64,000 bases of DNA from Antedon mediterranea (taxonomy: Eukaryota > Echinodermata > Crinoidea > Comatulida > Antedonidae), in the NCBI RefSeq assembly GCF_964355755.1, contig NC_092670.1:1327001-1391000 (forward strand), read 5' to 3'. This document shows positions 1-63,278 of the stretch, one piece after another. Below the pieces are notes generated by a model, which was not told where the DNA came from, ran no database searches, and worked only from the letters and a program-made list of their open reading frames with translations. Within the stretch, counting starts at the first letter, position 1; the number at the start of each line of letters is the position of its first letter. The translations under genes were made by a program, and so were the position numbers.

Positions 1-3000
1 AGAATTCCCAATTATTTATTGGTGCGTCGTCTGTTACAAAGTAAACTTCTCCACCCTGTGAAAAAAAAACAATGTGAAGTAAAGAATATAATGACAAAGT
101 TGGTTGTAAATGAGACTAGCAATTGATGTCAACAAAACTGTGGCATTATGTAAATGAGACTAGCAATTGATGTCAACAAAACTGTGGCATTATGTAAATG
201 AGACTAGCAATTGATGTCAACAAAACTGTGGCATTATGTAAATGAGACTAGCAATTGATGTCAACAAAACTGTGGCATTATGTAAATGAGACTAGCAATT
301 GATGTCAACAAAACTGTGGCATTATGTAAATGAGACTAGCAATTGATGTCAACAAAACAGTGGCATTATGTAAATGAGACTAGCAATTGATGTCAACAAA
401 ACTGTGGCATTATGTAAATGAGACTAGCAATTGATGTCAACAAAACTGTGGCATTATGTAAATGAGACTAGCAATTGATGTCAACAAAACTGTGGCATTA
501 TGTAAATGAGACTAGCAATTGATGTCAACAAAACTGTGGCATTATGTAAATGAGACTAGCAATTGATGTCAACAAAACTGTGGCATTATGAATGAGACTA
601 GCAATTGATGTCAACAAAACTGTGGCATTATGAAAATGAGACTAGCAATTGATGTCAACAAAACTGTGGCATTATGTTTATTTATAACATAACACAGTAC
701 ATCATTTTGGGAAAGAATGAAAAAGAGGTTGTTTTACTTTTAGCATGAAGTAAGTATTTAGGTTATACTTATACTTACAGACACATGTTTTTTCTTTTGT
801 GTTAGCGCATCTCCCGCTAAAATATGGCTGCTAACAAGATTGTCAATATGAATGAAATCAACTAATGCCGTTAGCCCTCCTATTGTACAGCGAACTAGAC
901 CAGCTTGCATCATATTCTAAAATAATAATTGTAGTTGTAACGAAGATCAGTATAAGTTCAAATTACCAAAATGCAAGCAACAACTTACGGGTGTATGCAT
1001 TAATATTTTGTATGCAAATGAAACCTAAACTTAATGACATGCTTCTGGTAGGGTGCTTGTTGGACGAGTAAAACTTCAATAAGTAAGACCAAAATGTATT
1101 AAGCTCAGTCTACACTCAATCAAACTTTATGTGACAAACAAATGTGATGTGACCATATATGGACATGATGATGTCATATCACTAACAATTTGGTCACATC
1201 ACACTTTTTTTGTCAAACTGATGGTGTAGACAGAGATTTAGGTTAGATCAATTTGCATGAAAAAAAATGGCAAAACTTTGTTTGACTTTGAATGTTGGCA
1301 TAATAATTCATTGCTTCAATGTATTACTGAACATTGTTTGTGTACCAACCACAATTCTTGGAAAGTGTCTTCTCTCACCAACCCCATATATTCCAGGTGG
1401 TCGCAACGCACATGTATGTAAAACAGCACCTCCTACAAATACAAGTACATTTAGTTTAAATCACATAATCATAAACTTTATCGCCATTTGATTTAACAAA
1501 TTGAATTTTAACAGTTATATATAAAAGCTATCATTATAAAATGGACACAGACAATCAGTGAAAACACAAAAAATATAAAAAATTTAAATAGGCACATTTT
1601 GTGTTTGTGAAAATGAAAACATTTGTAATTTGATTTACCTTTCGTTATTGTGCCATTGGCTTTTAGAATTTTGTTTTCTGAAATACATTTTGTTCTTGAA
1701 TAATCATCTGTAAACTAATAACGAATGTATTAGTGATTTATACTACTTATAGTAAGCTCTGTCTACACTATCAAACTAGTTTGACAAAAAAAGCGTGATA
1801 TGCCCAAATATGGTAGTGATATCTTCAAATATGGTAGATATGTCCATACACGGGCACCTCACATTTTGTTTTGGTCACATAAAGTTTAATAGTGAAAACA
1901 GACCTTTAAGTTGGTGGAGTATGGAACAAAAGAATACACTACAGTATTTAAAACATTGCTGGTAGGCCTACAATAAATAATTACAGTACATTGTAAAGAC
2001 AGAAGGCTCAGATGCTAATTTAATAGGTTGTTAAGTTTTAAAAAAGGGAATAAACAAAGAGATACTCAGATAATAGGTTTTCAGTTTAAATAGAGATAGA
2101 TGGAACAGTAAGAAGATTTGGTGGTAGGCTTAACAGATAAGATAGTTATATTGTAAACTAGATGGCTCAGATACCAGAGGAATTTTTCTGTTTTACTGGG
2201 CTTTATTTTTAATGTATATATATATATACTTTTTATAAATGTTGTATTTTTTATTGTTTGTTATGTACAATTTGGACTCCATTGGAAACGGGCTGGTTTT
2301 TCCGGCCTAATGGGTGTTCCTGATGCTCGTTATTTTGTCTTTTGTCTGTTTGTTATTTTAATGTTGAGCATCAAATAAATTCAATCAATCAAAAAAACTC
2401 AACAGTTATGAGTAGTTTAGAAAAAGAAGATTCAATGCAATCAGAAGCCAAGATAGTAGAATATTGGTTACAGCGTCAGACCAAGCTATTTCTACCCTTA
2501 CTGATGTCAAGATAGTAGAATATTGGTTACAGCGTCAGACCAAGCTATTTCTACCCTTACTGATGTCAATGGTAATGTAGGACACGTTTCTTCTGTAGCA
2601 TTTATTATTTCTTGGCCTCCAAACACAACAGCGGTCGTGCTTGTATACACAAGACGTGGAACATCATGCAAATAGCAACCTATAAATTGTGTAAAAACAT
2701 GATCATTTGATGCATTTCTATGTGGATCACATTATTGATTGGTTATATGGTGTTTAGTAAAATTGCATATTATTATACTGCACATGTTATGGAATTAAAG
2801 AGAAAACAATGTTATCTTAAGTTTACAGATTGACCTACAGATGACCTGTGAGCTATGAAAGAGGAAAAAAGTTTGCACCTACTTTCTCCTGTGTGCTTTT
2901 GCTTAGACTTTTGTTGTTACACAATCATTTTTATTTATTTTGTTTTCTTTGGGTGGGTAAGCCTTCTCAGTAATATTAATGAAACTGCGATGGGCACCCT

Positions 3001-6000
3001 ACCCGACCCTTTATTACTCATGATGTGAGCTATTTTGACTACACCCACACAGGAAGGAAAAGCATTAGTACATGAGTAACATTCTAACACTTAATAATGT
3101 AATGCAAAAAATGTAAAATCATTTACCTTCTATAACATTATCTGTTCCACCAACATTAATACTTTCTATAAATTTTGTTGGCTTTAGCTTAAAAAAAAAA
3201 CAAACATGGTTTTGTTAGTAGAAATACAATATGATAGTAATTATAATAACGTCTGAAATATAGAAATATAATACATGATGGTATACTATATCTCTGCTAT
3301 ATTAGAACCACTGGTACCCTCTCAAATACATTCTTAAATCTTATTAATTTTAAATCTAATTTTACTGGGTGTATATGTTATGCGCGATTTGAACGATTTG
3401 CGCAATTTAAAATTGCGCAAAGAATTCCTTGCGCAATTTGAAATTGCGCAAAGAATTCTTGCGCAATTTGAAATTGCGCACGGATTTTCTTGCGCAATAT
3501 TAAATTGCGCAATCAACTTGCGCAATATCAAATTGCGCAAGAAAATCCTTGCGCAATTTCAAATTGCGCTGCACAATTTGTAAAATTGTCAAATTGCGCA
3601 GCAGAATTCTACCAGAATGCGTGCTAACGTCGACGATCGGTTAACAATAATAATTTATTCGAAACTAATAACTCAAAATGAAACATAATAAATGCGAAGA
3701 TAACATGTGTATAATACACAACATAAATGGCATACACAATTAAATAATATTATCACTCTCATTGTAACTTAAAATAAATCAAAATAAATGTAAAAATAAC
3801 AAAAATTAATGTAGTCTAGTAAATACACAACATAGTCTACCGCCACCAACGGTTAGACTTGCTATCAAAACATAGCCAGTAGTAGGAAGGCTAGAGTAGT
3901 ATTAGCCGCCCGCCGTGCACGTGCCCGCCGGGAACTCCACCTTTGTGGTCCTTTGTCGGGTCTTCGACGGTATGCTAACAATAACAATATTTTCACTACT
4001 ATAAAAAATAAGGAAATGCGATATTATCTTTAATTTTGAATCATTCTTAGAAATTACTATAAAAATATGGGTGTGCATGATTTCACAATCTGTCGAAAAA
4101 AACCTTGCGCAATTTGCAGACTACTTGCGCAATTTAATACGTTGCTTGCGCAATTTGAAACAGATTTTTCAATTCAAATTGCGCAAGGAATTCTTTGCGC
4201 AATTTTAAATTGCGCAAATCGTTCAAATCGCGCATAACATATATATTGTACTGTAATTTGCTTTTTTTTCTTAAAGCCTTGTCTACACTATCAAACTTTA
4301 TGCGAGAAAAAAATGTGATGTGCGCGATGGACATATGATGTCATTATCACCACCATATTTGGGCACATCACACTTTTTTGTAAAAAATAGTTTGATAGTG
4401 TAGACAGAGATTTAGAATATTTGGAGCAGTTGGTAACTATGGCAACAGCAAAATAGAAGAAGATACTCAACAATATGCACTGTTAATGCGAGAGATTTAC
4501 CATTTAATAAAACACACAAGTATTTACCATTTCATAGCCAGACATTCCATATGATGCAATGTGGAATATACAACTTTTACCTTTACATAATTCTTGGACA
4601 AATGTCTTATCACATATGTCACCCTGGAAAAAAAAAGCACAACACACTTACATTTTTTTTAGAATAATGTAATTTTATTTATTTTTTTTTTTTTATTTTA
4701 TTTAATTTTCAGGCAAACATACATGACAACACAGCGGTGCAGCACCCTGAGGATTGCCATGAGTGCAAAGCACTATCGAGATGGCTCTCCATATACTGCA
4801 CTAGAACATATAAGACAAACATATACACAAGATGCTCTACATAGACAAAGACTTATTATTAAGTCTTTGGGAGTGGAGTTGTAAATTGTCATGAGAAAAA
4901 AACCCTGACATATGACAGGACTTGAACCCAGGACCCTTAGATTGGTAGCCAAGCATCATAACCACCAAGCCACAGCTCCACTAATTAGCTATTATCAGCA
5001 TTTTATCAGTGACATTTAAGCCATGGAATCCATTGAAAAAAGTGTTAATTACATATATTTGTTCTTACATATTTGTTCTTGTCTAATGCTTAAATTGTAA
5101 TTACTATTTGTGTTCAAATTGTATTTATTTTGGATGCTAAACAAATAAATAAAAAAAAAACTTTACCTGAACAAATTTAATTTCAACAGAATTGTAATCT
5201 TCGATAGGTGGTTGAATATCAGTGAGGGTCACATGGGCTCCTAGCATATTAAGGGCACGGCCTAAATGAATGCCAAAATATCCCGCACCGCCCGTTACAA
5301 GAACATCTACGTCTTTAAATGATGATGCATCAAGATTTCTGTATTTTTAAAGTAAATATTATTGAAAAATTTATAACATTAAATCATTATTTTTTCCTAA
5401 TTTTCAATAGGTGCCTAAAAACATGACACAATTATTAATTATTATACAGCAGTATATTAATCACTGTAAGTAACATGTAAATTAAATATTTTTTTATTTT
5501 ATTTTATTCAATCAAAGCCAACAGCGATAAATACCACCACATACAACTAAACAGGTTTGAAACATAAAACAATACAACATCAAAAAACGGTTAACAATAA
5601 AATACAGATAAAAATATATACCGTATATATATAAAAACATAGATAAGCATGCCATATTCAGTTTCAATTTAAAATGTATATTGATCAATAAAAATTAGTA
5701 ACAAAACAGTGCATTATTAATAGTATACTGGCTATCTTAGTTAGGCATTAAATTACAGTAAACAAAATTATTGATTACAAATACTTGTGTCGAAGCATGG
5801 AAGTAGATACATTACAACAAATTTACCCAAATTAATATAACAATGTTGGTTAGGGGGCGGGGGGGGGAGGAAGGGTCTATATCTCATGTCATGGCTATAA
5901 TTTACAGTACGGACGTGACAGAGGTGAGTGGGGGAAATCACTTTGACTGAAGTGAAGCCCTCTTGTTGTTAGGTGGGCCAAAGTCTAACTTTACAAACCA

Positions 6001-28338: not shown

Positions 28339-31300
28339 ATGGGAGGTACAGATTCAAAGCTAAATTTCCGAAAAGCTGTTGTTCAACTTACAACAAAGAC
28401 TCAAGTAAGTATTATATCTATCTTTTCTGTCATTTAAGCCGAAAATAGTAACAAATTATTTGATAAATTGACTGTAATAAAATGTGGTTGATTAAACATT
28501 ACCTTTCTAGTAGGCTATACGACGTGGGTTGATGATGTGACGTGTCTGTACTGTCCAGTGGAGTGGTGGTAGAGTAGTAGTAGGCTTGAGTAGTTTAGGA
28601 GTAGTAGGCTAGAGTAGTTAGGAGTAGGCTAGCACAGGCGTAGAGAGACTTCTGACTAGGCCTGCATCCCGAGAAGGCCTTTGTATGTATGTAAATTCCA
28701 GGACCAGTGTTGTAGAGTTTTATTTATCGTGTCTATTTTATTTGTAGGCAAACTTGTATGTAAACAAATTGATCGGATCGATCCAATTGGAGCCATCCAA
28801 TTGATCTGCCTAGACTAGAAACCTAATTCTATAAAAGTCTATTTTAAAATAGTAGTTACGTTTAAAACTTATACAGGCCTAGGGAGTAGGCCTATTTCTA
28901 TACTATAATATTTATTATTTAACATTTTCAGGATTAAAATATTAACAAGCCAAGTACAATTACAATACAGCTTTTACTTAAATTTAAAAAAACAAGAAAT
29001 TCCTTTAAAAACATTAACATTTTGTTAATGTTCATCTGATCTCTAGCCTGTTGAAGCCGGCGATGATGCATTTTGGGATCAGTTTTGGGTAGATTCCGTA
29101 GCAAGTGTAAGTGACGTGTTTGCCTTGATACCAGCTGCCGAGATCAGAGCTCTAAGAGAAGAATCACCTACAAACTTGGCAACTTTATGCTATAAAGTAA
29201 GCATTCAAGGAATGAAATAAACCTTGTGTTTAGAATAAGATAAGATTCTTTATCTCACTTGGAGAAAATATATGAAACATGACTTTACTACCCTTTTCCC
29301 TATGCAAGATACAGTATATTGTCCGCTTAAAAATAAATCTTAAAACAATTTTTGTTGAAATATGTCATTTTATTTTCACATAATGATTATCCACATTGAC
29401 CAAAATTTGGATCTAAACTATTTATTTAACTGAAAAATTATTATTTTTTTTTTTTTTTATGTAAGTAATTAACTTTATTAAAACTATAAAATAAACTATT
29501 CAAAGTCTGATTTAGTTAATCTTCATTTTTCATGTTTTTGGGGACAATACATCTTTGTGGTTTTTATTTTAATTGTTGTTATTGTGATCTTTTTTACAGG
29601 CTGTGGAGAAGCTTGTAACAGCAGCTGAGTCTGGCTGTTCGTCTCCCAATGATCAACACATTGTCCTCAACTGTGTCAGACTGCTCACAAGAATTCTGCC
29701 ATACATCTTTGAAGATCCAGACTGGAGAGGTTTTTTTTGGTCTACTCTGCCTGGACAATCAGTTAGTATCAGTAAAATTACTGCTGTAATTATAATAAAA
29801 TTACTCTGTAAAAAAATGGTTCCATTACTGAATTCTGAATGCAAGACAATTCAAACCATAGAATAATAATTATTTTTATGATTTATTTTTTTGTTTTCAA
29901 TTATAGAGTGATGAAGAAACGCAGCCTCTAGCCCAGTCTTTACTCAACTCTGTGTCAGATCTTCTCTTTTGTCCAGATTTCACCGTCTCTTCTCATAAAA
30001 AACCTGGACCAGTAAGTAACTATACTTCATAATCATCTTTATTGCAATCAATATATAAAAAAATATAGGATTGGATATTAATACAATTTACTACATAAAA
30101 TAATAAATAAAAACAAAAACGATGAAATAAAAATAGATACTTTCATTGTCACAAACAACCAAAAACAAAGCCGGGTATAGTCAAGGAAAAGGCAATTGGA
30201 CATGAATTGCATAATTTAAATAAAAAATGTTACTTCAGAATACTGCAGTAATTGTTTATATGTCTTCTATTTGCAGGATAATCATGAAGATCTTCAGTCT
30301 ATTGATAGCTGTGAGTATATTTGGGAAGCTGGTGTCGGATTTGCCAACACGCCCCCTCGTTATGCCCAGTACGACTTAATTCGATGTGAACTTCTTAAAC
30401 TGCTTCTTACGTGCTTTTCAGAAACTATGTATCTACCACCAATCAGTAAGTATATTCTAAATATAAAGTACTTTATATAAATCCTTTGCCGTTATTAAAT
30501 AGACATCGTACTGTGAAGATATCTGAACTGCCGCAAATATAGGTTAACATGAACAAGACGTTGAATAGGTCATTTTGCAGGTTTAATCAAGTTATTGACT
30601 TTCATAAAAAAAAACCATAACAAAATTTGTCACTTATAAAAAGACAAAATAAACAGTTAAATTCAACCAAAAACCTATTCTAGTCAATTTGACTATTTTA
30701 AAATTACAGTTTACCAATTTTTGGTCAAAGTGAATATTATGGTATAGAAACTATTATGCGACATTAAACTGGCATATCCAACAAAATAAATGCAAAACAA
30801 AGTTTTCAGGGGGAAAATATATCTTTTAAAAGCATACTTTTATAATACAATTTGTCATTAATATTCTTTTTTGCAGGTGATGCACACAATCAGCCAAATC
30901 TATGGATATCCTATTTCTGCTCAGCTGAAAACAGACATGCTCTACCACTCTTTACATCCCTACTTAATGTTGTGTGTGCTTATGATCCAATTGGTTATGG
31001 GGTGCCTTACAACCATCTCATGTTTGCAGATTATCGAGAACCGCTGGTAGAGGTGGCATCGCAGGTTTTGTGTGTTACATTGGACCATGAAGGCCCACCA
31101 GCATCACCGGTATCAGTTGATGGTACGGGTACTGGTGCTACGTTAGAGGGATCTCATGAGGTGAGTATAGTGTTTAGTGGCAAAAATGTAAAGATACTAT
31201 GAACTACAGCACCATTTAATGATGTGCTTTTTTAGTGTCTCCTCACTCAAGTATAACAACTGTATTTATCAAAATCCTGAATTAGATATCTTTTATTGTA

Positions 31301-43342: not shown

Positions 43343-45230
43343 TTAGTCGTCATAGAAAATATTGTCAAATAGTACTATAGTTCCTCTATCTGTACATTCT
43401 CTGGTCATATAATTCATTACATCATCTGATAGGTTGCAATTATTCATTTCCAGCTTCATCAGTTTTGGAGACATAATCAGAGACCATAATAAAGTATCAT
43501 CAATGTTTCTCAAATCATTATCACTTAAATAGAGACTTTGTAATTGAACTTCTCCATTTGAACACTCTCTGGCCATGTCATTCATTACATCACCTGATAA
43601 ATTGCAGTTACGCATTTCAAGCTTCCAGAGCTCGGAAAATAAATTTAACAAAGAACCGAGCAAAGTACCATCTATGTTGCTAAGATTATTACCACTAATA
43701 TTGAGCCATTCTAAGGCTAATCCACAATATGAACACTTGATTACATCACTTGGTAGAATGCAATTATTATGCATTACAATTTTATCATTTAGCTTAAAGG
43801 ACAAAATCATTAAGGAGCCCATGTTTATCATGTGATTGATTACATCACCTGATAGATTGCAATTTTGCATTACCAACTTCTTTAGCTTAGGAGACATATT
43901 CAGTAAAGAACCAAGTAAAGTACCATCAATGTTGCTGAGATTATTACCACTGATATTGAGGCCCAATAATGGTAATTGAACTCTTCTATTTGAACACTCT
44001 TTAATCATGTAGTTCACTGTATCATCTGATAGATTGCAATTACACATTTCAAGCATACTTAGCTCAGAAAACAAAATGAATAAAGAACTCAGTAGAGAAC
44101 CATCAATGGTGCTGAGATTATTATCACTGATAAACAGGTCAGCTATTCGTAATTGAACTCCTCTATTCAAACACGCTCTGATCATATCATTCAATACATT
44201 ACCTGATAGCTTGCAATTATTCATTTTAAGTACTCTTAGCTCAGAAAAGACACTTAATAAAGAACTTAGTAAAGAACCATCAATGGCGCTGAGATTATTA
44301 TCACTGATAAACAGGTCAGCTAATGCTAATTGAACTCCTCTGTTAGAATACTCTTTGATCATATCATTCATTACATCACCTGATAGCTTGCAATTATTCA
44401 TTTTAAGTACTCTTAGCTCAGAAAAGACACTTAATAAAGAACTTAGTAAAGAACCATCAATGATGCTGAGATTATTATCACTGATTAACAGGCTAGCTAA
44501 TGGTAATTGAACTCCACTATTCAAGCACTCTTTGATCATATCATTCATTACATCACCTGATAGCTTGCAATTATTCATTTTAAATTTCTTTAGCTCAGGT
44601 GACAAAATGAACAAAGAACCCAGTAAAGAACCATCAACATTGCTGAGATTATTATCATTGATTCTTAGCTGTTCTAATGCTAATTGAACTCCTCTATTTG
44701 AACACTCTCTGATCATGTCATTGAATACATCACCTGATAAATTACAGTTACTCATTTTAAGCCAACACATTATAGGAGACATAATCATCAAAGAACCCAG
44801 TAAAGAACCATCAACATTGCTGAGATTATTATCATTGATTCTTAGTTGTTCTAATGCTAATTTAACTCCTTTATTTGAACACTCTCTGATCATGTCATTG
44901 ACTGCATCACCTGATAAATTGCAGTTACTCATTTCAAGCCAATACATCCTAGGAGACATAATCATCAAAGAACCCAGTAAAGTACCATCAATGCTGTCCA
45001 AATTATTGTTGGAGATATTGAGCACCTGTAATACTAACTGACCACCTCTATTTGAACACTCTTTAATCATGTCATTCATTATGTGGCCTGATTGATTTTT
45101 AATCATAACATTGTCACAACTTGAATCAATGCTCAAAAGGTGTGCAATTACTCTTCCTTTGCCATCTAATGCCATATTACTACAAAATGTAGATAACATA
45201 TCATCATTATATTCCATAGAATGAAGTTTC
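43343..45230 (-). other. LRR-coding part of the NLR exon: nine 59-residue units
   Basis: Each unit has the form L.IS.NNLS.IDG(S/T)LL.SL...S.L..L.M.NC.LSGDV.NDMI.ECSN.GVQL.L, with two leucine-rich repeats per unit as in ribonuclease-inhibitor-like arrays. Units 4 and 5 are almost identical over SLLSVFSELRVLKMNNCKLS, indicating recent duplication or conversion. Unit 7 is irregular. The stop codon is at 43343. Confidence 0.9.
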
Positions 45231-48200
45231 CTAATTAGATGTATGAAATGAACATCATAATGTGTACAGGCCCGTATGCAGCATTTATAATGGGGGGGTG
45301 CGAGCGAAGCGAGCAACAATGGCTGGGGGCCAGGGGGCCGCCAAGGGCCCCCGTGGAAAAATTTGCGTTATTTGACGTTCTAAAGACTGATGTAAGACTC
45401 TCTGTTGTGGCTTGGGCTAGTTGAACGATGGACACCAGAACTTAACGCTTTCATGATGAGGCCAACTCAGCAGGGGTGGCGCCAGGATCTTCCCGACGCG
45501 GGGGCTACATTCCCCGACGAGGGGGCTATGCGAGCGAAGCGAGCATCACTAGGCTGAGGGCCAGGGGCCGCCAAGGGCCCCCGGTGGGGGTCCAGGGGGC
45601 GAGGCCCCCGGAAGCAACGCGTTCTAGCGTCATTTGAGGTCTTTTTAATCAGATTTAGGGTAGCCATTTTTTCCATTTTTTATAATGCATAAATAAAATA
45701 CTGCGTGCAAAAAAACGATGCGCGATGACGGTTTCAATCCATATTTTTCAATTTAAAAAATAAAAGTTCAAAGAAAATTTTGAAAAATAGAGTTGGAGGT
45801 CCCGGAAATTGGACTTATTATACTTCAAAACATGAACAAAAAATATATAAGTCCCTATCATGGGTTGTGACTGAGCTAAGAAATGTTTGAAAAATAGAGA
45901 TGTTAGGTCCCGGAAAATGTACTTCTTGTTCTTCGAAATATGACCAGCTTTATTGTTGGGGCTGAGCTAAGAAAATGTTTAAAACTAGAGCTGCAGGTCT
46001 TCAAAAAATTGCATTTTATACTTTGGAAACATCAGGCCTAGAGGCTTAAAAAACGCAAGCGTAGACCTTTTTCAGTCGGGGAAAAAAGTTTATTCCTCCC
46101 AGGTGTATGCATGCGTACCATCTGGACTTCCGAGTGGTGAGAAATTCATGACATACAGGATATTGAAATGTAATAACTATAGCTATAATGTTGGCTAAGC
46201 GAAAATGGCATGTTTTTTTGTTTAGTAATGGATGAAAAATTTATTTTAGGTGCCCCACGGTACAGAAGGTTACTTGTAAATTAAAAAATTGGTGAACAAA
46301 CGAACAATTAACATAATTCGTTTTTGCTGTAGTGTAGCGTACGTCGACGCAGTACACGACGTAACCGTCGGTAAACTTCGCCTGGAAAATAACACATTAC
46401 ACATTTTGGTCCCTGGATGAAACTTGATATCACGCGTCTCGACCCAACGTTGAACGATTCGTACAAAGGGATACCGCCAGACAAGTGCGTACCTAGCTAT
46501 TGTTTGGTAGTAAGTTAGATCGCTGGCAATAATGAATGCATATAAAGTGCATAATATCACTCTGACGTACTCTCACGGTCAATGAAACGTCACGGTTTTC
46601 TAGGCGCTGAAGCTAGCTACGAAGTGAACGCGAACGCTTTTACTGTATATTATATTCCCCCACAAAAAGTACACGTGTTTTCCCTGACGTTAAATTGTCT
46701 GTATTTCTCCAGCAAACACTTTACCGCGTACCGCGTACATGAAGCGCTAAGCTATTGCTTGTCGTCACATGATCGACTGCGCATGTTTTACATCGAGTTT
46801 GTAGTCAGTTCAGATTCCGTAATTTAATTACCGGTATTTTTTCATTTTATATTAGCATATTTTTGTTTGTATACCATTGATAATGTAAATTTTGTGTATA
46901 TATAATGATATTGTCTTTAGTTAAACAAGACAAGAAAAAATACCAACCGAGGAAATAGTGGACCTTTTGGGACTTGGGGGGGGGGGGGGTGCGTCTGCAC
47001 CCAACGCACCCCCCCTGGATACGGGCCTGGTGTATCTTCAGGACTAATAAACATTCGTATGGAGGCAGATATATTGTCAATATGTTGATGTAGTTTAGTA
47101 CATTTCATTTTAGCAATTAGTGTTTTGAGTACAGCATCCTCATGCTGTTTTTTAACAAACTCCAAATTTCTTGGTAGTGAGCGATATTTTGATATATTAT
47201 TTGTAATCCAATGATTTAAAAATATACCAGCTTTATCACCAAGAAAACCAACTGCAAACTCTCTTACAATTGCTAAGTGCTCACTTTCCCTTATTTCGTC
47301 CCATTCATTATCATTCAATGGTGTAAGTAATCGTGTTACACATTCAATACATTCATTTTCCATACCTTCATTTTCACATAATTTGGACAAGTAAAATCCT
47401 ACCAATGACTCTACTATCAACTTGTGCGGAGGCATGTAAATGCTGTCAAAGTTAGATTTTGAAATTGGTGCCTCTTCATAAACAAATCCAAGTTTTAAGG
47501 CTAGGTCAACTATATCTTTGTTATCTTTCAAATCACGTTTGTCTATTGAAAGTTGATTTACTTTCAAGCTCTTATACATGTATTTTCCTAACAAAATCAT
47601 AGCCTTTACATACTCCTCTGGAGCATCTTCAAGTTTAGAAATCTTTCTGTATTTTTCTTGTTTTTTGTTAAACTGATTTAAAATACAGCGAAATATTTCT
47701 TTGAAAAGGTCGGCTTTATTATGAGGAAGACTTTGATTTTCTTCCCAAAGAAGGCAGATTAAGAGGAGCAACATTGGATTTCTGCACATTGAGTATACAT
47801 CTGTATTTGGCAAAGTATACCTATCAATCCCCAATTCATCTATAAGAGATGTTCCCAATTCCGGTTTTCTAAAATAACTGAAGTGTTTGACAATATACTC
47901 TTTTATGCTCTGGCTATCAAACCCTTTAACTTTTACATGTACATTACACTTGTTAATGAATTCATCTATGTTCTCGGATCGTGATGTAAGTATCACAGTA
48001 CTCTTTGGTAGTATTTCCTTTGTAAACAGGCAAATTAAGCTCTTGTTACTAAATCTTAATTCATCTAACCCATCTAATAACAACACAATTTTATCATCGT
48101 GTATCAGTAGAAAATCTACTAAAGAATCTTTTGAAAGTTTTGTATGTCTACTAAAATCTTTCATATCCGTTTGTTTTTCGATGAGATCTAAAATGTCATC

Positions 48201-51200
48201 ATCTTTTTCTAAATCTCTTATATTTAAAAGAAATACTATTTTACCTTCAAAAAGTATTTTGCCAGTAGCCCAGTTTGATGCTAACCGTCTTAAAATAGTA
48301 GTTTTCCCAATACCACCCTGGCCCTCTATAAGTGTTTTACAATTTGGTGTTGATTTGATAATATCTGCAACATCTTGTAATGTTGTTGGTTTTGCTTCTT
48401 TTTTATCATTTTCTTTGAGTAGTTCCAAATCGGTAAACATCTGTGAAATGTCAACTTTGTATCTAGCTCTCATTATAGCTGGTGTAAATTGACTGGCCTC
48501 TTTGCACAATACGTTCTGTCTTTTAAGCAAATATTCTTCTATCTTTTCTAAATACAAAGAAATATATTTAATTGTAAATATCTATAAAAAATTTACCATA
48601 TATAAAACTGTGATTAATAACTTTTAATCAAATTTATGTATATCTATGTATAAGTGTTTTTATTTTTACTCAGAATGAATATGCAGTATTTCATTAAGTA
48701 GTACATTGTAATATCATCATTTAAATTGAAAATTATATTAAATATAATTTTTTTACATTTTCAACAATTTTTTTAATGTTACTTTATAGAGAGTCACAAT
48801 ATAAAAATGTTCAAACTAGTCACTAGGACAGATTAGATACACGCAGACATACAAGACACAAAGAACCTTGATAATTTACAGTAAACTGATAGAAGGAGAG
48901 GCCATCCTGCATTCTTTTTTACCACAGCTCTCCAAAACTGTCAACTTATACAATAGCTCACTACACTCATTCATCATCCTAATGAAATGTTTTGACTGTA
49001 AGCTCTAATAATCATTCTATTGATTTGGACACCAAAATCCAAAAGGTTAAGGTTTAAATCTATTTTAAATGTTTTATTTCTTTTTTAAAAAACATTCTTG
49101 AATTTAATTCAAATTGAATTGTAAAATTGGTAAATGTATATATGCAAACGTATTACTCACCTGTGTCTGAATTAAGGTCTTTTTGCAAGCTTTGTTCTTC
49201 TTCACTCTTGGTCAAGATATTCTTTTTAGACACACAGATAGTTTCCAATTCAACTGTGTAATAAATAAAGAAAACTGATTTTGAAAAGTTGTTCATTATC
49301 ATTCATCATAATGTTCTTCACATTAATCTGTCTAGTTTAATCTGTGAAACAAGAAGGTTATTGTTTGGACCATGAGCGCTTATTTTTTTATGCAGTCAAT
49401 TTCAATTACGGTGGGGAAAGCGAAAAAAGCAACAAAAAAAAAACAGTAAAACAATAGGGCATAGATGTACAATTGTTATTTCAAACATACGTTGATTTAT
49501 CAGCTTTTGACTTAAATCTTCTTCCCAAACATTGATCTCTTGAAATGCTTCCAAACAGGGTGGTATTACAGCATCTCTGGTTAATTTCACTGGAATCACC
49601 TTTGCCTGATCTAATGTGTTGTTGTCTAACATTTTCTGAATAGCTGTTGCCACAACATACTTGACCTGGTCATTCATGGATTCTGGTCCAAATCCCACTA
49701 CAACTTTCCTGCATTGGTGCATAAGTTTAATCATACTTTCGATTTTAAGTTGTCCAGGTTTCCCATCTTTTCTTGTGACACATGTAACGTTTGGTTTTAT
49801 TCTTTGTAGATCTTGTAAAACTTTATTTTCCCACTCTTTATTTTCGCTTATTATATAAAAATCATAGTTATTCACTGAAATTCAAAAATTCGCTTGGATC
49901 AGTATCTATGCCAATTCATTTCATTTCAAGATGAAAACGTTGGATTAATGGAATAAAAAAGAATGATAAATGAATAATTTAAATTTGTTGATTTGGCTGA
50001 CCATTTACTTCAATTCAACCTCGCCTCTTTAACAGTGTTATCAATCTTTTACCTCATGAAAATATTCTTCCCATCCAACTTGTAAACATTCATTATTTGT
50101 AATTATTATGCCACAAATTAGCAACTATAAATGTTGGTGTACAGCATTATCAATTCAATTATATTTATTATAAATATTATCAACACAGAAACTGAAAGTG
50201 TCTATTTTATAACATGCATAGATAGTAGGCCTACATTTGCAAATAACTTGCCTGCTTTTGTTTCAACACATTTTTGAAATTCTTGCTCTTTTTTTCTACT
50301 TGTCAGAACATCATCTTGTGTTGCTGAACAGTGGTCCTCTGATTTCTCTGTTTCTAAGATTAATAACCAAAAAATAAAATTGTCTATCGCATGACCTGGT
50401 CAATCTAAAGTAGCCTTCCATTTAAACACCAGTGAGGGGTCTATAAATGTTTGTTTTAATTCAATTAAAAATAATATTTTCTAATATTAAAATGATACAT
50501 TGTCATTTCTGAATTAGCTCACCTGTTTCAACACATTTCTGCAATCCTTCTTCATGACTTATTGGCACTTCTTCTGAGGATGAACAACAGTCCTTTGATT
50601 TCTCTGTTAATAATAACCAGCATTATTACTATTACTATTATGTTTACTATATCTTATCTACTGTCACACATCCTGTTTTTAATTATTTATATACAGGTTG
50701 TATTTCTTTTAATACCGGGTAAACTCTTCTGTACAAAAACTGGTCATTACAGTGAAAAATAAACATGGTCAAGATTACCATTAAAACTAAATCTAGTAGT
50801 AGAGGTCCCAAAAAACGGTTACACTACCCCTGATACTGATACTATTTTTAAGCTGGCAAATAAGAAAAACTTTTAAGATACAAGATAAAATTGTGAAAAT
50901 GCCTGTATTGTGAAGAATGAAGGAAGATTTACACTGTGGTTTTACTTTACCATAGATCTTGATAATCTGTTGGCATATATCTCCTTCCCAACCATTTAAC
51001 ACTTGTAATGTTTCCAGTGCTTGTGGTACCACAGCATCATTGGTTATTTTTACAGCAAGTAATCTTTTTTGTTGAAGTGTGTTGTTATCCAACAGTTTCT
51101 CAATAGCTCCTACTGCACTAAACTTGTCCTCTGATAAATGCCATGTAAACCCAACTATAATCATCTTGCATCTACTCATCGGTTCTATCAAATATTTCAT

Positions 51201-51948
51201 TTTAAATTTTCCATTTTTTCTCTTTCTGCTTAGACATTTCACTTCTGGGTTTTCATTTTGAAGGTCTTGTAAAGTTTTCTTTTCCCACTCTCTATCATTA
51301 CTTATGATGTAAAAATCATAGTCATGTTCTGAAAGAATCATTTAAGATATATTGTCCCCCAAAAACATGAAAAATGGAGATAAATACAATCAGACTTTAG
51401 TAAATAGGCCATTTTGCAGTTTAATAAAGTTATTCACTTCTGTAAAAAAAAAACCCAAAGCAATAGGATTTCACTTATAAAAAGACAAAAGAAACGGTTA
51501 TTTTTAACCATAAACCTTCTTTTTTGCTTTAAATTACATTTTTTAAGGTAAACAATTTTTTCTGATCCAGTTTTTTGTGAAAGTGAATACATATTACATG
51601 ACATTAAAATGGCATATTTTTAGGGGGGGGGGGGGGGACAATATAATCTTATATATTGTTGTCTTTCTGAAATAATTTGTTTAAATGTTTTTGTTGAATA
51701 TACCATTTTATTGTCACATAATATTTATTCACTTTAACCCAAAATTGGATTGAAAAAAAATGAAATGTAACCGTTTATTTATTTCTTTTTATAAGTGAAA
51801 ACATGCTTTTTAAAATTTTTGTAAAAAACTTGGTTAAGAAGCTGCAAAATTGCCTATGCAATGTCTTCTTTTATTAATAATTCATATTCGTTTCTTATTC
51901 ATAAAGACTTGATATTCCTTTTTTAAATACTATACCTGATTCTGCCAT
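43343..51948 (-). CDS. NLR-type receptor: TIR-like, TIR-like, NACHT, leucine-rich repeats (exon interrupted by transposon)
   Basis: Coding exons: 51936-51948 (ATG), 50951-51328, 50523-50603, 50252-50353, 49491-49874, 49161-49253 and 43343-48547, the last split by a transposon at 45267-47029. Domains: TIR-like 1 (residues about 5-130, YDFYIIS..EWE, IIVGF); two short linkers sharing EKSxDxCS and QKCVET; TIR-like 2 (about 192-320); a third linker; NACHT with Walker A GQGGIGKTT near residue 430, Walker B IVLLLDGLDEL and TSRSENI; then nine 59-residue leucine-rich units. With one target duplication removed, the interrupted exon reads through without a stop (1,495 aa). Cytosolic sensor by family inference, ligand unknown. 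One intron uses a GC donor (49875-50251). The TIR assignment is by pattern, and the catalytic glutamate of NADase TIRs is not evident. Confidence 0.88.
45267..47029. mobile_element. DNA transposon (1,763 bp) inserted in NLR coding exon; TSD GTGTA
   Basis: Terminal inverted repeats CAGGCCCGTATGCAG (45267-45281) and, reversed, CAGGCCCGTATCCAG (47015-47029) match at 14 of 15 bases. The element is flanked by GTGTA at 45262-45266 and 47030-47034. The left part holds two related GC-rich blocks (GCGAGCGAAGCGAGCA and GGCCGCCAAGGGCCCCC near 45301 and 45529), the second preceded by CAGGGGTGGCGCCAGGAT, which resembles another element's end. A poly-G run lies near 46977. No transposase was recognised, so it is likely non-autonomous. 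Superfamily not assigned; 5-bp duplications occur in some hAT-like groups. Confidence 0.9.
51340..51645. mobile_element. MITE family C copy
   Basis: Left end AAGATATATTGTCCCCCAAA, right end GGGGGGACAATATAATCTT with an expanded G run. The interior has GTAAATAGGCCATTTTGCAG and CACTTATAAAAAGACAAAAG. A second, head-to-tail or reversed related block follows at 51640-51900 (TATATTGTTGTCTTTCTG, TTTTTGTTGAATATACC). It lies in the first NLR intron. Confidence 0.7.
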
Positions 51949-57400: not shown

Positions 57401-60400
57401 AATTAAAGATTTTAAACAGTATATTGAAGGTCATTTATTCTTTAAAATCGTTTTCTTAGGTACTAACAAAAAGTTTTAGATTTCTCAAAAAAACTTACTC
57501 TTTCAACTCTGGTTTAAGATTTAGCAATTGTTTAACTCTATTCAGATTTCCTTTCCTACAACACACATGAATGCTGTCACCAGAAAGCAATGCTTCCTCT
57601 TTTTGCCTTTCCTCCTCTTTTTTCAGTTCTTCTTCTTCCCTTTTTATTCGTTCTCTTTCCTCACGTGCATGAATACCAGCCTTAAATTACAGACATTGGA
57701 AATATTAATTAAAATTTATTTTAAAAAAAGAAATTCATTCTTCTTCTTTAAATTAAAGAGTTTTTAGTAATTTTAACTATTAGTAAATTTTAAAAAAGGA
57801 TAAAAACAAGATGACAATCAATCAGTTATACCTCAAATCCTGCCATGTAATCCCTTCTTTGACGTTCACTGTCACTAGACGGCGGTCGAGGTGTAAAATG
57901 ATCATCTTCTGAAACTTCTTCAATTTTTCTTAATGTTCTTGGTTGTTGAGGTAAAGACTCTGTTTGATACTGCACGCTGTCAACTGGTTGATGTTCAGAA
58001 GATCCACCAGTATCGCGATACCGACCATGACCACCACTCGAGCCAGTTTCTCTGCTGTGACCTCTTTGATCTTTGTTATTTCTAGAATTCTCTCCCTTCT
58101 CATCTTCACTATCACTGCCACTGGATGAACTATCACTACTTTCTCCAGAACTATCCGTGTCATCAGACTCGCTTCTTTCGTCTTGTTTTCCATCCACTTC
58201 ATCTTCACTCTCGCTCTCACTGGATGATGTACTCTCATTGCTCTGTTTTGTGCGACTATCACGACTTGTTTGGCTTCCTCTACTACCATCACTGTCATAA
58301 CCAGTGCTAGTGTTTTCAACGATTATCATTCTCTGCAGTCGTGGTTCTTCCTCAGCGTAAGTGTCACTATCAGCACTTCTCTCTACATAACTTGTTTGTG
58401 AGTCGGTTTCAGAATCTGAATCTGATGCATATAAATATAGAAATATTTATCCTTATTAAACCTTAGATATAATAATAATAATCACTTGTGAAAAGAGCAG
58501 AGGAATGTTTTTGCGATATCTTGATATTTTATAAAAACATTATTATTGGAAACTACTCACAAATTAGTTTATTATGAACCACAATTTGGAATTTAAAATC
58601 GTCTTTTCTCATCTTCTATAAGTGCGTGTTTCTTTTGTACTCAACTATCTTTGCTTTTACCTATATTACTACATGTCCAAATACTGTAGCACTGATGAAG
58701 GAACACATTGACACAGCAGGATAGGTTTTTAGAAGTTACATTATTTATTATAATTATCTAAATCATGTTTTTTTGTATAGGTTTCAAATGGCAAATCTTG
58801 GGGAAATTTGGTAACATTATGGCCAATTTTATTATTAGGATCTAAAAATGTGAAATTATGTAAACTAAATCTTCTTACCCATAGTGATGTTACCAACAGG
58901 TAAAGTTCTAGTTGTCTTGCCATCCTCATCCTGACCAGATAACCATTTATCACAGAGGAATTCGTACACCACATCATCTTGGAACTCTTTCACTTGCACC
59001 TTCTCTAAAAACCATCCACAACCTAAATAAATAAACCAGTTTATAGTTTGATATAAAAAATAAAACTCACACACAGTATAAAACAGACAAGACTTGTCAC
59101 CAAGCCTCACACACAGTATAAAACAGACAAGACTTGTCACCAAGCCTCACACACAGTATAAAACAGACAAGACTTGTCACCAAGCCTCACACACAGTATA
59201 AAACAGACAAGACTTGTCACCAAGCCTCCACTCACACACAGTATAAAACAGACAAGACTTGTCACCAAGCCTCACACACAGTATAAAACAGACAAGACTT
59301 GTCACCAAGCCTCACACACAGTATAAAACAGACAAGACTTGTCACCAAGCCTCCACTCTCCACGCAATTTCAACACATTGGATTATTCATAAATTTTACT
59401 CAGCTTCTTTGATGCTAATTCCTAAACATAAATGTGTAAAACTTACCCAGCTCTTTCCTGTCATGACCAATTTCAACACATTGCAATTTCCCCACAAAAA
59501 ATGATTCCACTTTAAAAACATCAACCTATACAAAAAGGAAAAGAATAGTTTCTGTTACGGTCTGTTGAGACAAAAAAGTGGGTTCAAGTCCTGTCATATG
59601 TCATTTTTTTTTCTTATGACAAATACAACTCCACTCCCAAAGACTTGTACAGTAATTGGACTTTGTTTATGTAGAGCATCTTGTGTATTGTTTGTCACCA
59701 TTAAGAAAGATAGTGAATGAATTCGCTTATGGTTTTCCTTGGCAATTTGCCTAAATATATAATTTAAAAAAAAAAATATTTAAATAAAAAAAAAACACAA
59801 ACCTGGCCTCTTTGAAACTTTGCTTTCTTGTTCTGACTTGTATCTCTTGGTTGCTTCAGCTTTATTTTCCCTGTATTGCCATTTTCACCAAATAATGTAA
59901 TAACAATATCTGCATGTGTACTTGCACCAAGCCTGTCACCAGTGTGAATTAGCAACTCGTAAATTGACCTACGGCCAGACTTGATCCTTGGCCCGTGTTT
60001 TAAGTGTTCGTAATCTTCATTTGCAGGAGGAGGATCTACTTGTACCCCTATTTCTGGAGAAGGAGAATCGGTCTGTGTCTCCTGATCAGGTGGTGTCTGC
60101 GCCTCTGTAGAAATCATTGTCTGCGTTGATATCTCAAGCTGCGTTTGTGTTGCCATTTCCGGCATAGTTTGTGTGGAAATGGTCGGTGGAATGGGCACAG
60201 TTTGGGTGGATATTGTCGGTGGAGGAGGTACAGTCTGGGTGGATATTGTTGGGGGTGGGGGCTTAGTTTGAGTAGATGATGTAACTGGTTGAGGTTTTGT
60301 TTGAATTGCCATATCTGCTTGGTAAGGGTCTGTCATGCTTTCTTCATTGTTGGATCTGCGTGTTTGGGTGTCTTTAGAATTTTCTTTCTCTACAGTTTGT

Positions 60401-63278
60401 GTGCTAATTTCACGACCTGTCTGTGTTGTGTTGTCGATGCTGTAAAGATCTGGATTGTCTGGCTTTGCCGTTGATTCCGTTTCCTCTTCTTCTTCCTCTT
60501 CATCATTGACATCAACTTGTGCCATCTGAATACTAATAAAAAATAATACTACTAGTAAACTTTCAGAACCAAAAAAGTGTCCTTTTAATAGTTTTAATAT
60601 ATTTGTTTGGATTATTACTTCTTAAAGTTTATCCTAATTGAAAGCTGTGCTGTTAAAGTTTGATCTAAAAACCTTGTATGTAAATATGAACAATCACTGC
60701 CTACCTCAACCATTCTGGAACCTGATTGGATGAATTAGCTTGATTCACTGCAGCCTGATTTATTGGTACAAGGATGTTCATTGGTTCATCTTCAGAAACT
60801 TCAGATTCTGATTCTGATGTATCATCATAATTCTGCGGAGTCTGATTATACAAGATTTAAATTACTGTACAGTATTGTCGCAAATATAAAACTTTAAACT
60901 GTTTACTATTAATTATTGTAATAAAATTCATGATTTTCAAATGTCATATCATCATCATAGTATATTCTAATCATAATATTCATTTTATAATCATCAAAGT
61001 ATAATATACACAGTACCAACCTTCTTAGAAATTCTGATTTTTCTTCCTGAGATATCATAACCAAACCTAGCTGAGCTTGGTTGTGATTGGTCCGTTAGAC
61101 CAACAGCTGACTTGGGGCGACTGTTCTTATGGTTGCCATTAACTTCCTGTCGCCGCATTCCATACGAGGATTTAGGTCGCGTTGGTGATCTTCTTTTTGA
61201 TTCCTCATTGCCATTTATACTTGGTAGACTGCTCCTGTTTCGACTATTATTCACTCTGTAAGCCTGATAAAGAGAAATAATGGTTAATGTTCTTGCTTTC
61301 AATCCTATGGTTCTGGGTTCAAAAATGATCTAATTGATCAGACTCAATTTAATTTTGTGGATTTTCTTTAATATATCGACATATAATTATATTACACACC
61401 CCTAAAAATCAGTGTTTGTCATGTCATTATAAAACAAAGCATAAACATAATTTGAGTGTATGTCATATATTCCAAAAACTCAATCAAAATACGCACCTTA
61501 GCTGAATACTTGGGGTTGTTCAGGTTATCTAATGGAACCGTTTCCTAAAAAAAAACATTAACATTTGTTAATCATTATAAAAAATCATCACATTCATTAT
61601 ACAAAATACATTGATTATAATTTATGTTTTTTCTTTTCACATAAAGGTTTATGTGAAAAGATTAATTTAGACTAGTGCACTTAGTATTTATGTGCAAATG
61701 TTTTGACAGGAATTCTTACTGTTGCCACTAGCAATCTTGTTGCATTGTTCACCAATCTGGTAGCCTCGCCCTTTGACAGCATTGGACCGTGCCGTGACCG
61801 TATTAACACCGGGCCACCTTTAAAGTTACCACGTCTTATAAAGGAAAAAAAATATTCTCTAGTTAGTTTAAAAATGAAATAAACTAGTGTGTTTATTTAT
61901 CCTTTCTTACTATGAAACGTCCAATTGTTAAGAGTTGCTAAACAATGTGGACATTGATTTCTAATTCTCAGTTGTTCAATTTTTTTTTAGTAGACTTACC
62001 GTTTTTTTGGTGATGATTTTGGTTTAGCAACGTTTGTGTAAGGACTCTGAAATGATAAAATTCAATCAATTTAAACAAACCAAATATTACGGAGCAAAAT
62101 GCATACTCTTTCTAATCTACTTAAGCAAAAAACCCTGGTAAGCAAGAGCAAAAACCACTTCTCAGAATTAAGTTAAGTAGTATTAAAGTTAGCTGAATTG
62201 GATACAATTTTGGTATGATACTACATATCAGGGCCGTAGCCACCAGTAGGTAAGTGACCACCTGACAACTTTTTCTGAGAGGCCTTTGACCACCCAGTGG
62301 CTTGAACAGAGATTGTTCCCTTTCCTTGTGAATACCGAACCCCTTTATTTAGTGTAACAACATCACTGCATATCATATAAATGCAGGTGAGTAGTGCAGC
62401 TGTTTCTGCTCTATTGCATTATAATGTACTTAGTGCTATTCTTGCAGTCGTTACAATGCTAATGCAGTACGAGACCTGCCTTATACAGTAATGTAATTCA
62501 ATGTTTAACTGAATAAAAAAATAACACTTACAATAGGATAGGTATTTATCATATATTGATCAACGTCTTTCCTAAAAGATGATAAAAATGTATTGAATAC
62601 AGTATATGCATTAAATAAATGTATTATTATACAGAAACATTGCAAGAGAGTGAATATGGTGACTTGCACAGGAAACCCAACAAGTGAAAAAATAAACTGG
62701 ATCTCTTTTTAAAATACTATATATCCTCGAGTATAATTCCACTGCAGGTCTATTGCACCTGCTTTATGTCTGATTTCACAAACAGGCATATACCCCAGTA
62801 TAGACTTTCTATTTGAATGTTAGCCTCATTTATAACCAGTTCTGATGAGTTTTTACAATAAATACTTACTAATGTTTTATTTTCCTCCGTCCCACCCACC
62901 AAAGTCGGCTCAATTTTGTGTTCTAGTAGGGTGGGATATATCAGAGGATATATGGTACCTTAATAACCATGTGTATTCCAATCTTATTGTTTTTCTATTC
63001 AGCAATATTATCATTTTATGATGCATGTGATCACAACTACAGTACTGTAGTGCTTTGAATGCTTTCCAAGCCTTTTTAATGGAAAGTAGTTTAAACATAA
63101 GTCTAAAAATATATACTAAGAAAAACCAGAAAATAGAATAATTATTTCACCTGATATCAGACTCCCTCTTTGTATTGGGTCTGCACGTCATATTATTCAG
63201 TTGACGACGAACACGAGTTTCTCTGAAGTAATGTTTCAAGGCTCTATCGTGCAAACCATCATACATTAATGTAGGTCT
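54473..63278 (-). CDS. Ankyrin-repeat and PLAT-domain protein with ERICH3-like N-terminus (5' end uncertain)
   Basis: Exons: 63151-63278, 62532-62571, 62000-62046, 61720-61834, 61497-61544, 61021-61263, 60705-60841, 59803-60532, 59447-59525, 58879-59022, 57832-58421, 57499-57680, 56846-57091, 56392-56635, 56093-56146 and 54473-54580. All phases close, giving 1,044 residues to the stop. Order: LHDRALKHYFRETRVRRQL, resembling the ERICH3 N-terminus; basic Ser/Pro linker; acidic region; STQT/proline repeats; PLAT domain (YELLIHTGDRLGASTHADI through CGWFLEKVQV); Ser/Asp/Glu-rich stretch; Glu/Arg coiled coil; about four ankyrin repeats; Gln/Ser tail. PLAT domains bind lipid or protein partners. ERICH3 relatives are ciliary, so a ciliary role is a guess. 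The start may be the in-frame ATG at 63266 or an exon off the window. Confidence 0.85.
59066..59353. repeat. 40-bp minisatellite, about 7 copies, in PLAT-coding region intron
   Basis: Units of CTCACACACAGTATAAAACA plus GACAAGACTTGTCACCAAGC; some unit joints carry an extra CCA. It lies between exons 58879-59022 and 59447-59525. The word ACAAGACTTGT is itself palindromic. Confidence 0.95.
59560..59730 (+). mobile_element. tRNA-derived SINE (family 1), truncated head
   Basis: B box GGTTCAAGTCC at 59582, then CTGTCATATGTC, ACTCCACTCCCAAAGACTT and TGTAGAGCATCTTGTGT, matching the copy at 4675-4985 in reverse orientation. The A-box half is missing. It is intronic. Confidence 0.75.
62225..62320. mobile_element. 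Fragment resembling a transposon end (CAGGGCCGTAGCCACC)
   Basis: CAGGGCCGTAGCCACCAGTA followed by GTGACCACCTGACAACTTTTT and GGCCTTTGACCACCCAGTGG. Ends beginning CAGGGxCGTAGC are typical of inverted-repeat DNA elements, but no partner end was located. Confidence 0.35.

Follow-up and report, generated by a model that had tools for sequence, protein, structure and literature searches.

A young non-autonomous transposon has very probably broken the NACHT-LRR exon of one TIR-TIR-NACHT-LRR receptor gene of Antedon mediterranea, and the resulting allele is likely to be null or to encode a product without LRRs. The locus was studied in a window of 64,000 nucleotides, which is the whole stretch of DNA analysed here. 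Direct reading of the sequence showed an element of 1,763 bp with the ends CAGGCCCGTAT...ATACGGGCCTG, flanked on each side by the direct repeat GTGTA and splitting the minus-strand exon that encodes the NACHT domain and the LRRs (Table 1). When the two flanks were joined by script, with the element and one GTGTA left out, a single minus-strand frame of 1,156 codons without any stop was obtained; on the two other frames of the joined exon, stops made up 12.6% of the codons. With the element present, the upstream frame reads 37 codons into it and ends at a stop at 46917–46919. The insertion follows residue 515 of this 554-residue frame, the final 37 residues of which are derived from the element. 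The original prediction had described the anatomy (length, inverted ends, and GTGTA duplication) correctly in every statement and to the base. Both the continuous frame that it expected after deletion of the element with one GTGTA and the stop about 37 codons inside the element were borne out, and the truncated TIR-TIR-NACHT product had been correctly predicted from the sequence.

Table 1. Features of the disrupted receptor gene and of the inserted element (positions refer to the window).
Feature	Position	Strand	Evidence
LRRs and stop: remaining part of the exon, 3' of the insertion on the coding strand	43343..45261	-	LRR_4/LRR_1 matches; in frame with the NACHT part when the element is left out
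Target-site duplication GTGTA, copy 1	45262..45266		Direct read; 5-bp duplications also in 25 of 30 other copies examined
Non-autonomous TIR DNA transposon in the exon, 1,763 bp	45267..47029	+	Genome copies, consensus comparison
Terminal inverted repeat, left arm (CAGGCCCGTATGCAG)	45267..45281	+	Inverted pair, 15 nt, 93% complementary
Terminal inverted repeat, right arm	47015..47029	-	Pairs with left arm
Target-site duplication GTGTA, copy 2	47030..47034		Direct read
Stop-to-stop frame with NACHT module, last 37 codons from the element	46917..48581	-	PF05729, E 1.1e-21; internal splice acceptor placed by eye
Inferred small exon between TIR and NACHT exons, ends approximate	49163..49257	-	Open frame; acceptor ~49253 (6.8 bits), donor GTGAGT ~49160 (8.1 bits)
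Open frame, TIR domain nearer NACHT	49405..49881	-	PF13676, E 1.1e-6; PF01582, E 4.8e-5
Open frame, second, more N-terminal TIR-like domain	50796..51341	-	46% identical to the other TIR over 128 residues; no Pfam match

The domain assignment of the host gene was confirmed by Pfam profile matches for the NACHT domain, the LRRs, and one TIR domain. Two TIR domains had been claimed; the one nearer to NACHT stood, and the second proved to be TIR-like by its identity to the first, with no profile match of its own. The gene resembles metazoan NLRs (NLRC4, NOD2, and NLRP3) and the expanded invertebrate NLR families in combining a STAND ATPase carrying Walker A and B motifs, a helical NACHT module, and C-terminal LRRs. 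Unlike in NLRC4, NOD2, and NLRP3, the effector part is not a CARD or pyrin domain but a pair of TIR domains, and the frame of the window copy has lost its LRRs. In the NACHT domain of this copy the Walker motifs are intact (A, GGIGKT; B, LLLDGLDE). The allele as assembled has no C-terminal LRRs in frame with this domain, whereas the paralogues have them, as does the reading frame obtained by omitting the element. The LRR part at 43827–45078 is built of 7.1 tandem 177-bp units, each corresponding to 59 codons and matching at 82%, which indicates that the sensor repeats of this gene were recently amplified as pairs of LRRs.

A structure model of the truncated product reached a mean pLDDT of 59.6, corresponding to moderate confidence, and its best structural matches were NLR structures. 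Residues 44–494 of the model aligned to residues 112–582 of NLRC4, 212–742 of NOD2, and 146–652 of NLRP3, a region that represents the NACHT-helical module. Taken together with the position of the insertion, this alignment places the cut after the helical module and before the LRRs, so that the module would be kept and the LRRs would be removed. Elsewhere in the window, an exon matching the Hid1/Dymeclin family (30846–31199, plus strand; PF12722, 3.1e-22) belongs to an unrelated conserved gene near the receptor. An open frame with a PLAT domain was observed at 59767–60621 on the minus strand (PF01477, 1.1e-5), and a 40-bp tandem array of about seven copies (59066–59353) adjoins it.

The genome of A. 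mediterranea contains at least 103 NACHT domains, all above the curated cut-off, and 83 scored candidate places were related to the host gene. All 20 of the closest paralogues that were read were open and collinear across the insertion point, with no intron there, which indicates that the uninterrupted exon represents the ancestral state. A search for an empty site elsewhere in the assembly revealed none at up to three mismatches. Pairwise dN/dS between the window gene and each of these 20 paralogues was 0.33–0.45, values that reflect the long history of the gene and not the time since the insertion.

The same comparison bears on the question of whether the gene had become a pseudogene by the time the element arrived, in which case the insertion would have been without effect. 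Three of the related places carry internal stops, so the family does include pseudogenes. However, the joined exon runs through its 1,156 codons without stops or frameshifts. A further 12 full exons of paralogues were aligned, and the window copy shares every residue that is invariant among them up to the insertion, the Walker A and B motifs included. Since the conserved residues are intact and the rest is stop-free, the exon appears to be without decay other than the insertion itself, and we consider a prior pseudogene quite unlikely.

The exact 11-base end motif of the element was found 300 times (145 + 155) in the 354-Mb genome, as compared with nine times (4 + 5) for a reversed control pattern. 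This search for further copies of the ends had been proposed together with the original prediction. At least 40 copies showed 93–99% identity across all or most of the length (40 of 1,325 candidates were scored), and an exact 5-bp duplication flanked 25 of 30 copies that were examined; the target sequences showed no strong consensus. The longest frame wholly within the element encodes 100 amino acids without a Pfam match, and the element is non-coding. Thus, it has the features of a non-autonomous TIR DNA transposon, namely 15-nt inverted arms common to many copies, a duplication of fixed 5-bp length, multiple copies, and no transposase of its own. Short forms of approximately 0.6–1 kb with identical ends occur in the same family (L045, L046, L047, and similar loci). 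At up to one mismatch, the right end alone occurred 473 times and the left end 148 times, a ratio of roughly three to one, and related families may share the right end.

The window copy differed from the consensus of 28 near-full-length copies by 6 substitutions in 1,753 bases, a distance biased low by the choice of these copies for their resemblance to the window copy. Three of the six substitutions were private, being present in none of the 27 other copies. More copies could only reduce the number of private changes; therefore, 3/1,753 (0.17%) is an upper estimate of the point changes since insertion, recurrent changes aside. These values indicate that the element is very young. No substitutions at all separated the copies within the sets L020/L022/L023, L024/L028, and L030/L031, which suggests that the family has been active recently. 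The genomic copies, their mostly 5-bp duplications, the at most three private substitutions, and the open paralogues thus give good support to the predicted recent insertion into a previously uninterrupted exon, the inserted element being a multi-copy TIR transposon.

Near-identical copies elsewhere in the genome are able to mislead assemblers, and the insertion might in principle be an artefact of assembly or of haplotype merging. Against this, the ends of the window copy are intact, it is flanked by a duplication of its own and carries substitutions that no other copy in the comparison has, and the locus lies inside a long chromosome-scale contig. An artefact is therefore extremely improbable.

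We also explored whether the element prefers the neighbourhoods of NLR genes, and no preference was established on contigs C1–C3: four elements lay 25 kb or less from a listed NLR gene versus 0.92 in circular shifts, but without the window copy the number was three (p 0.07), and there was no excess at 50 or 100 kb.

To move by cut-and-paste, the element would have depended on a transposase provided by another locus of the genome. No autonomous partner or transposase was found for the family among the three hAT-adjacent copies and the long TIR-bounded copies examined. The search for the hAT dimerisation domain gave three matches within approximately 3 kb of an element end. As autonomous copies, L047 and L049 were rejected, the hAT gene lying outside the element in both, and in L048 pieces of hAT coding sequence lie within the element, splitting it between positions 332 and 328. 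The nested hAT piece of L048 is accompanied by a 5-bp AGGGG repeat but has no matching inverted ends. L039, L041, L042, and L082–L086 were likewise rejected, being nested insertions or compound copies. In L085, a nested piece at 650–3200 has two ends that are inverted copies of each other, and it contains frames such as FTDGCGSQCKNKYNF with no Pfam match; it is possibly another transposon.

Classical hAT elements duplicate 8 bp of the target. The hAT5 group of hAT elements has 5-bp duplications (PMC12730594). The element in the window resembles non-autonomous TIR transposons with duplications of this length, such as those of hAT5, in its inverted ends beginning with CAG, its 5-bp duplications, its many near-identical non-coding copies, and the presence of shorter deletion forms. 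It differs from hAT5 in that no transposase could be linked to its family, so that membership in hAT is at most putative. The 5-bp duplication fits hAT5 and is not exclusive to this group; it provides a lead, not a classification.

An element located in an exon could also be removed from the transcript as a new, introner-like intron, which would leave the receptor functional. There are 43 in-frame GT-AG combinations around and inside the element, and the frame on the downstream side stays open as far as 45367, within the element. However, all of these pairs are weak: the best reached a total of 0.9 bits on a rough generic matrix, as compared with 8.1 bits for the donor and 6.8 bits for the acceptor of the neighbouring splice sites of the gene itself on the same crude scale. 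In addition, no listed pair restores the exact original junction, and the paralogues have no intron at this site (0/20). Splicing of the element as an intron is thus unlikely judging from the splice-site scores, and a receptor kept functional in this way has a very small probability.

The preferred explanation is the disruption of the gene by a young transposon. According to it, insertion into the NACHT-LRR exon duplicated GTGTA, and transcripts, if made, would end in the element or read through it. Three AATAAA signals are located within the element on the coding strand (46245, 46094, and 45954) and could end the transcript early. The allele would encode at most a TIR-TIR-NACHT protein without LRRs. 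Pathogen sensing by this copy would be lost, which would make the allele a null or a hypomorph, and the loss may be tolerated because many paralogues exist. The youth of the insertion makes it probable that it still segregates in the species.

The same features can be read as a gain, in which a stable TIR-TIR-NACHT protein without LRRs would act as a constitutive or decoy signaller. The entire NACHT module and both TIR domains are retained, and the AATAAA signals on the coding strand are compatible with a shortened transcript. Moreover, the stop falls in the apparent last coding exon, a position that may let the transcript escape exon-junction-dependent decay. Nevertheless, among the best-studied relatives, NLRP3 without its LRR is not constitutively active, and NOD1 and NOD2 without theirs lose their response (PMC11352923). 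By analogy with these receptors, removal of the LRRs alone would not be expected to activate the product, so loss of function appears likelier than a new signal, and a gained signalling form is unlikely. The more specific proposal that a segregating, expressed LRR-less TIR-TIR-NACHT isoform is kept by selection as a dominant regulator of the intact paralogues, either autoactive or as a decoy, is very improbable.

The event is of a known kind, the breaking of one member of a large gene family by a transposon, and does not constitute a new biological system. It resembles transposon-disrupted alleles in large receptor families, where likewise a single gene of a multigene family carries a young insertion in a coding exon. 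There is no structural difference from such alleles; what is particular to this genome is the identity of the element family and of the host gene. In the literature searched on transposon-broken animal NLRs, nothing directly comparable was found.

In conclusion, the locus provides a base-exact and cleanly dated case in which a young transposon has probably deprived an innate immune receptor of its sensor part, the host being an animal whose NACHT repertoire is large. Should the insertion be segregating, carriers and non-carriers would provide a natural experiment: whether a single receptor out of a hundred matters could be seen, and also what a TIR-NACHT protein does without its LRRs. Mainly, the finding shows that the element family was recently active and suggests that single NLR copies are expendable.
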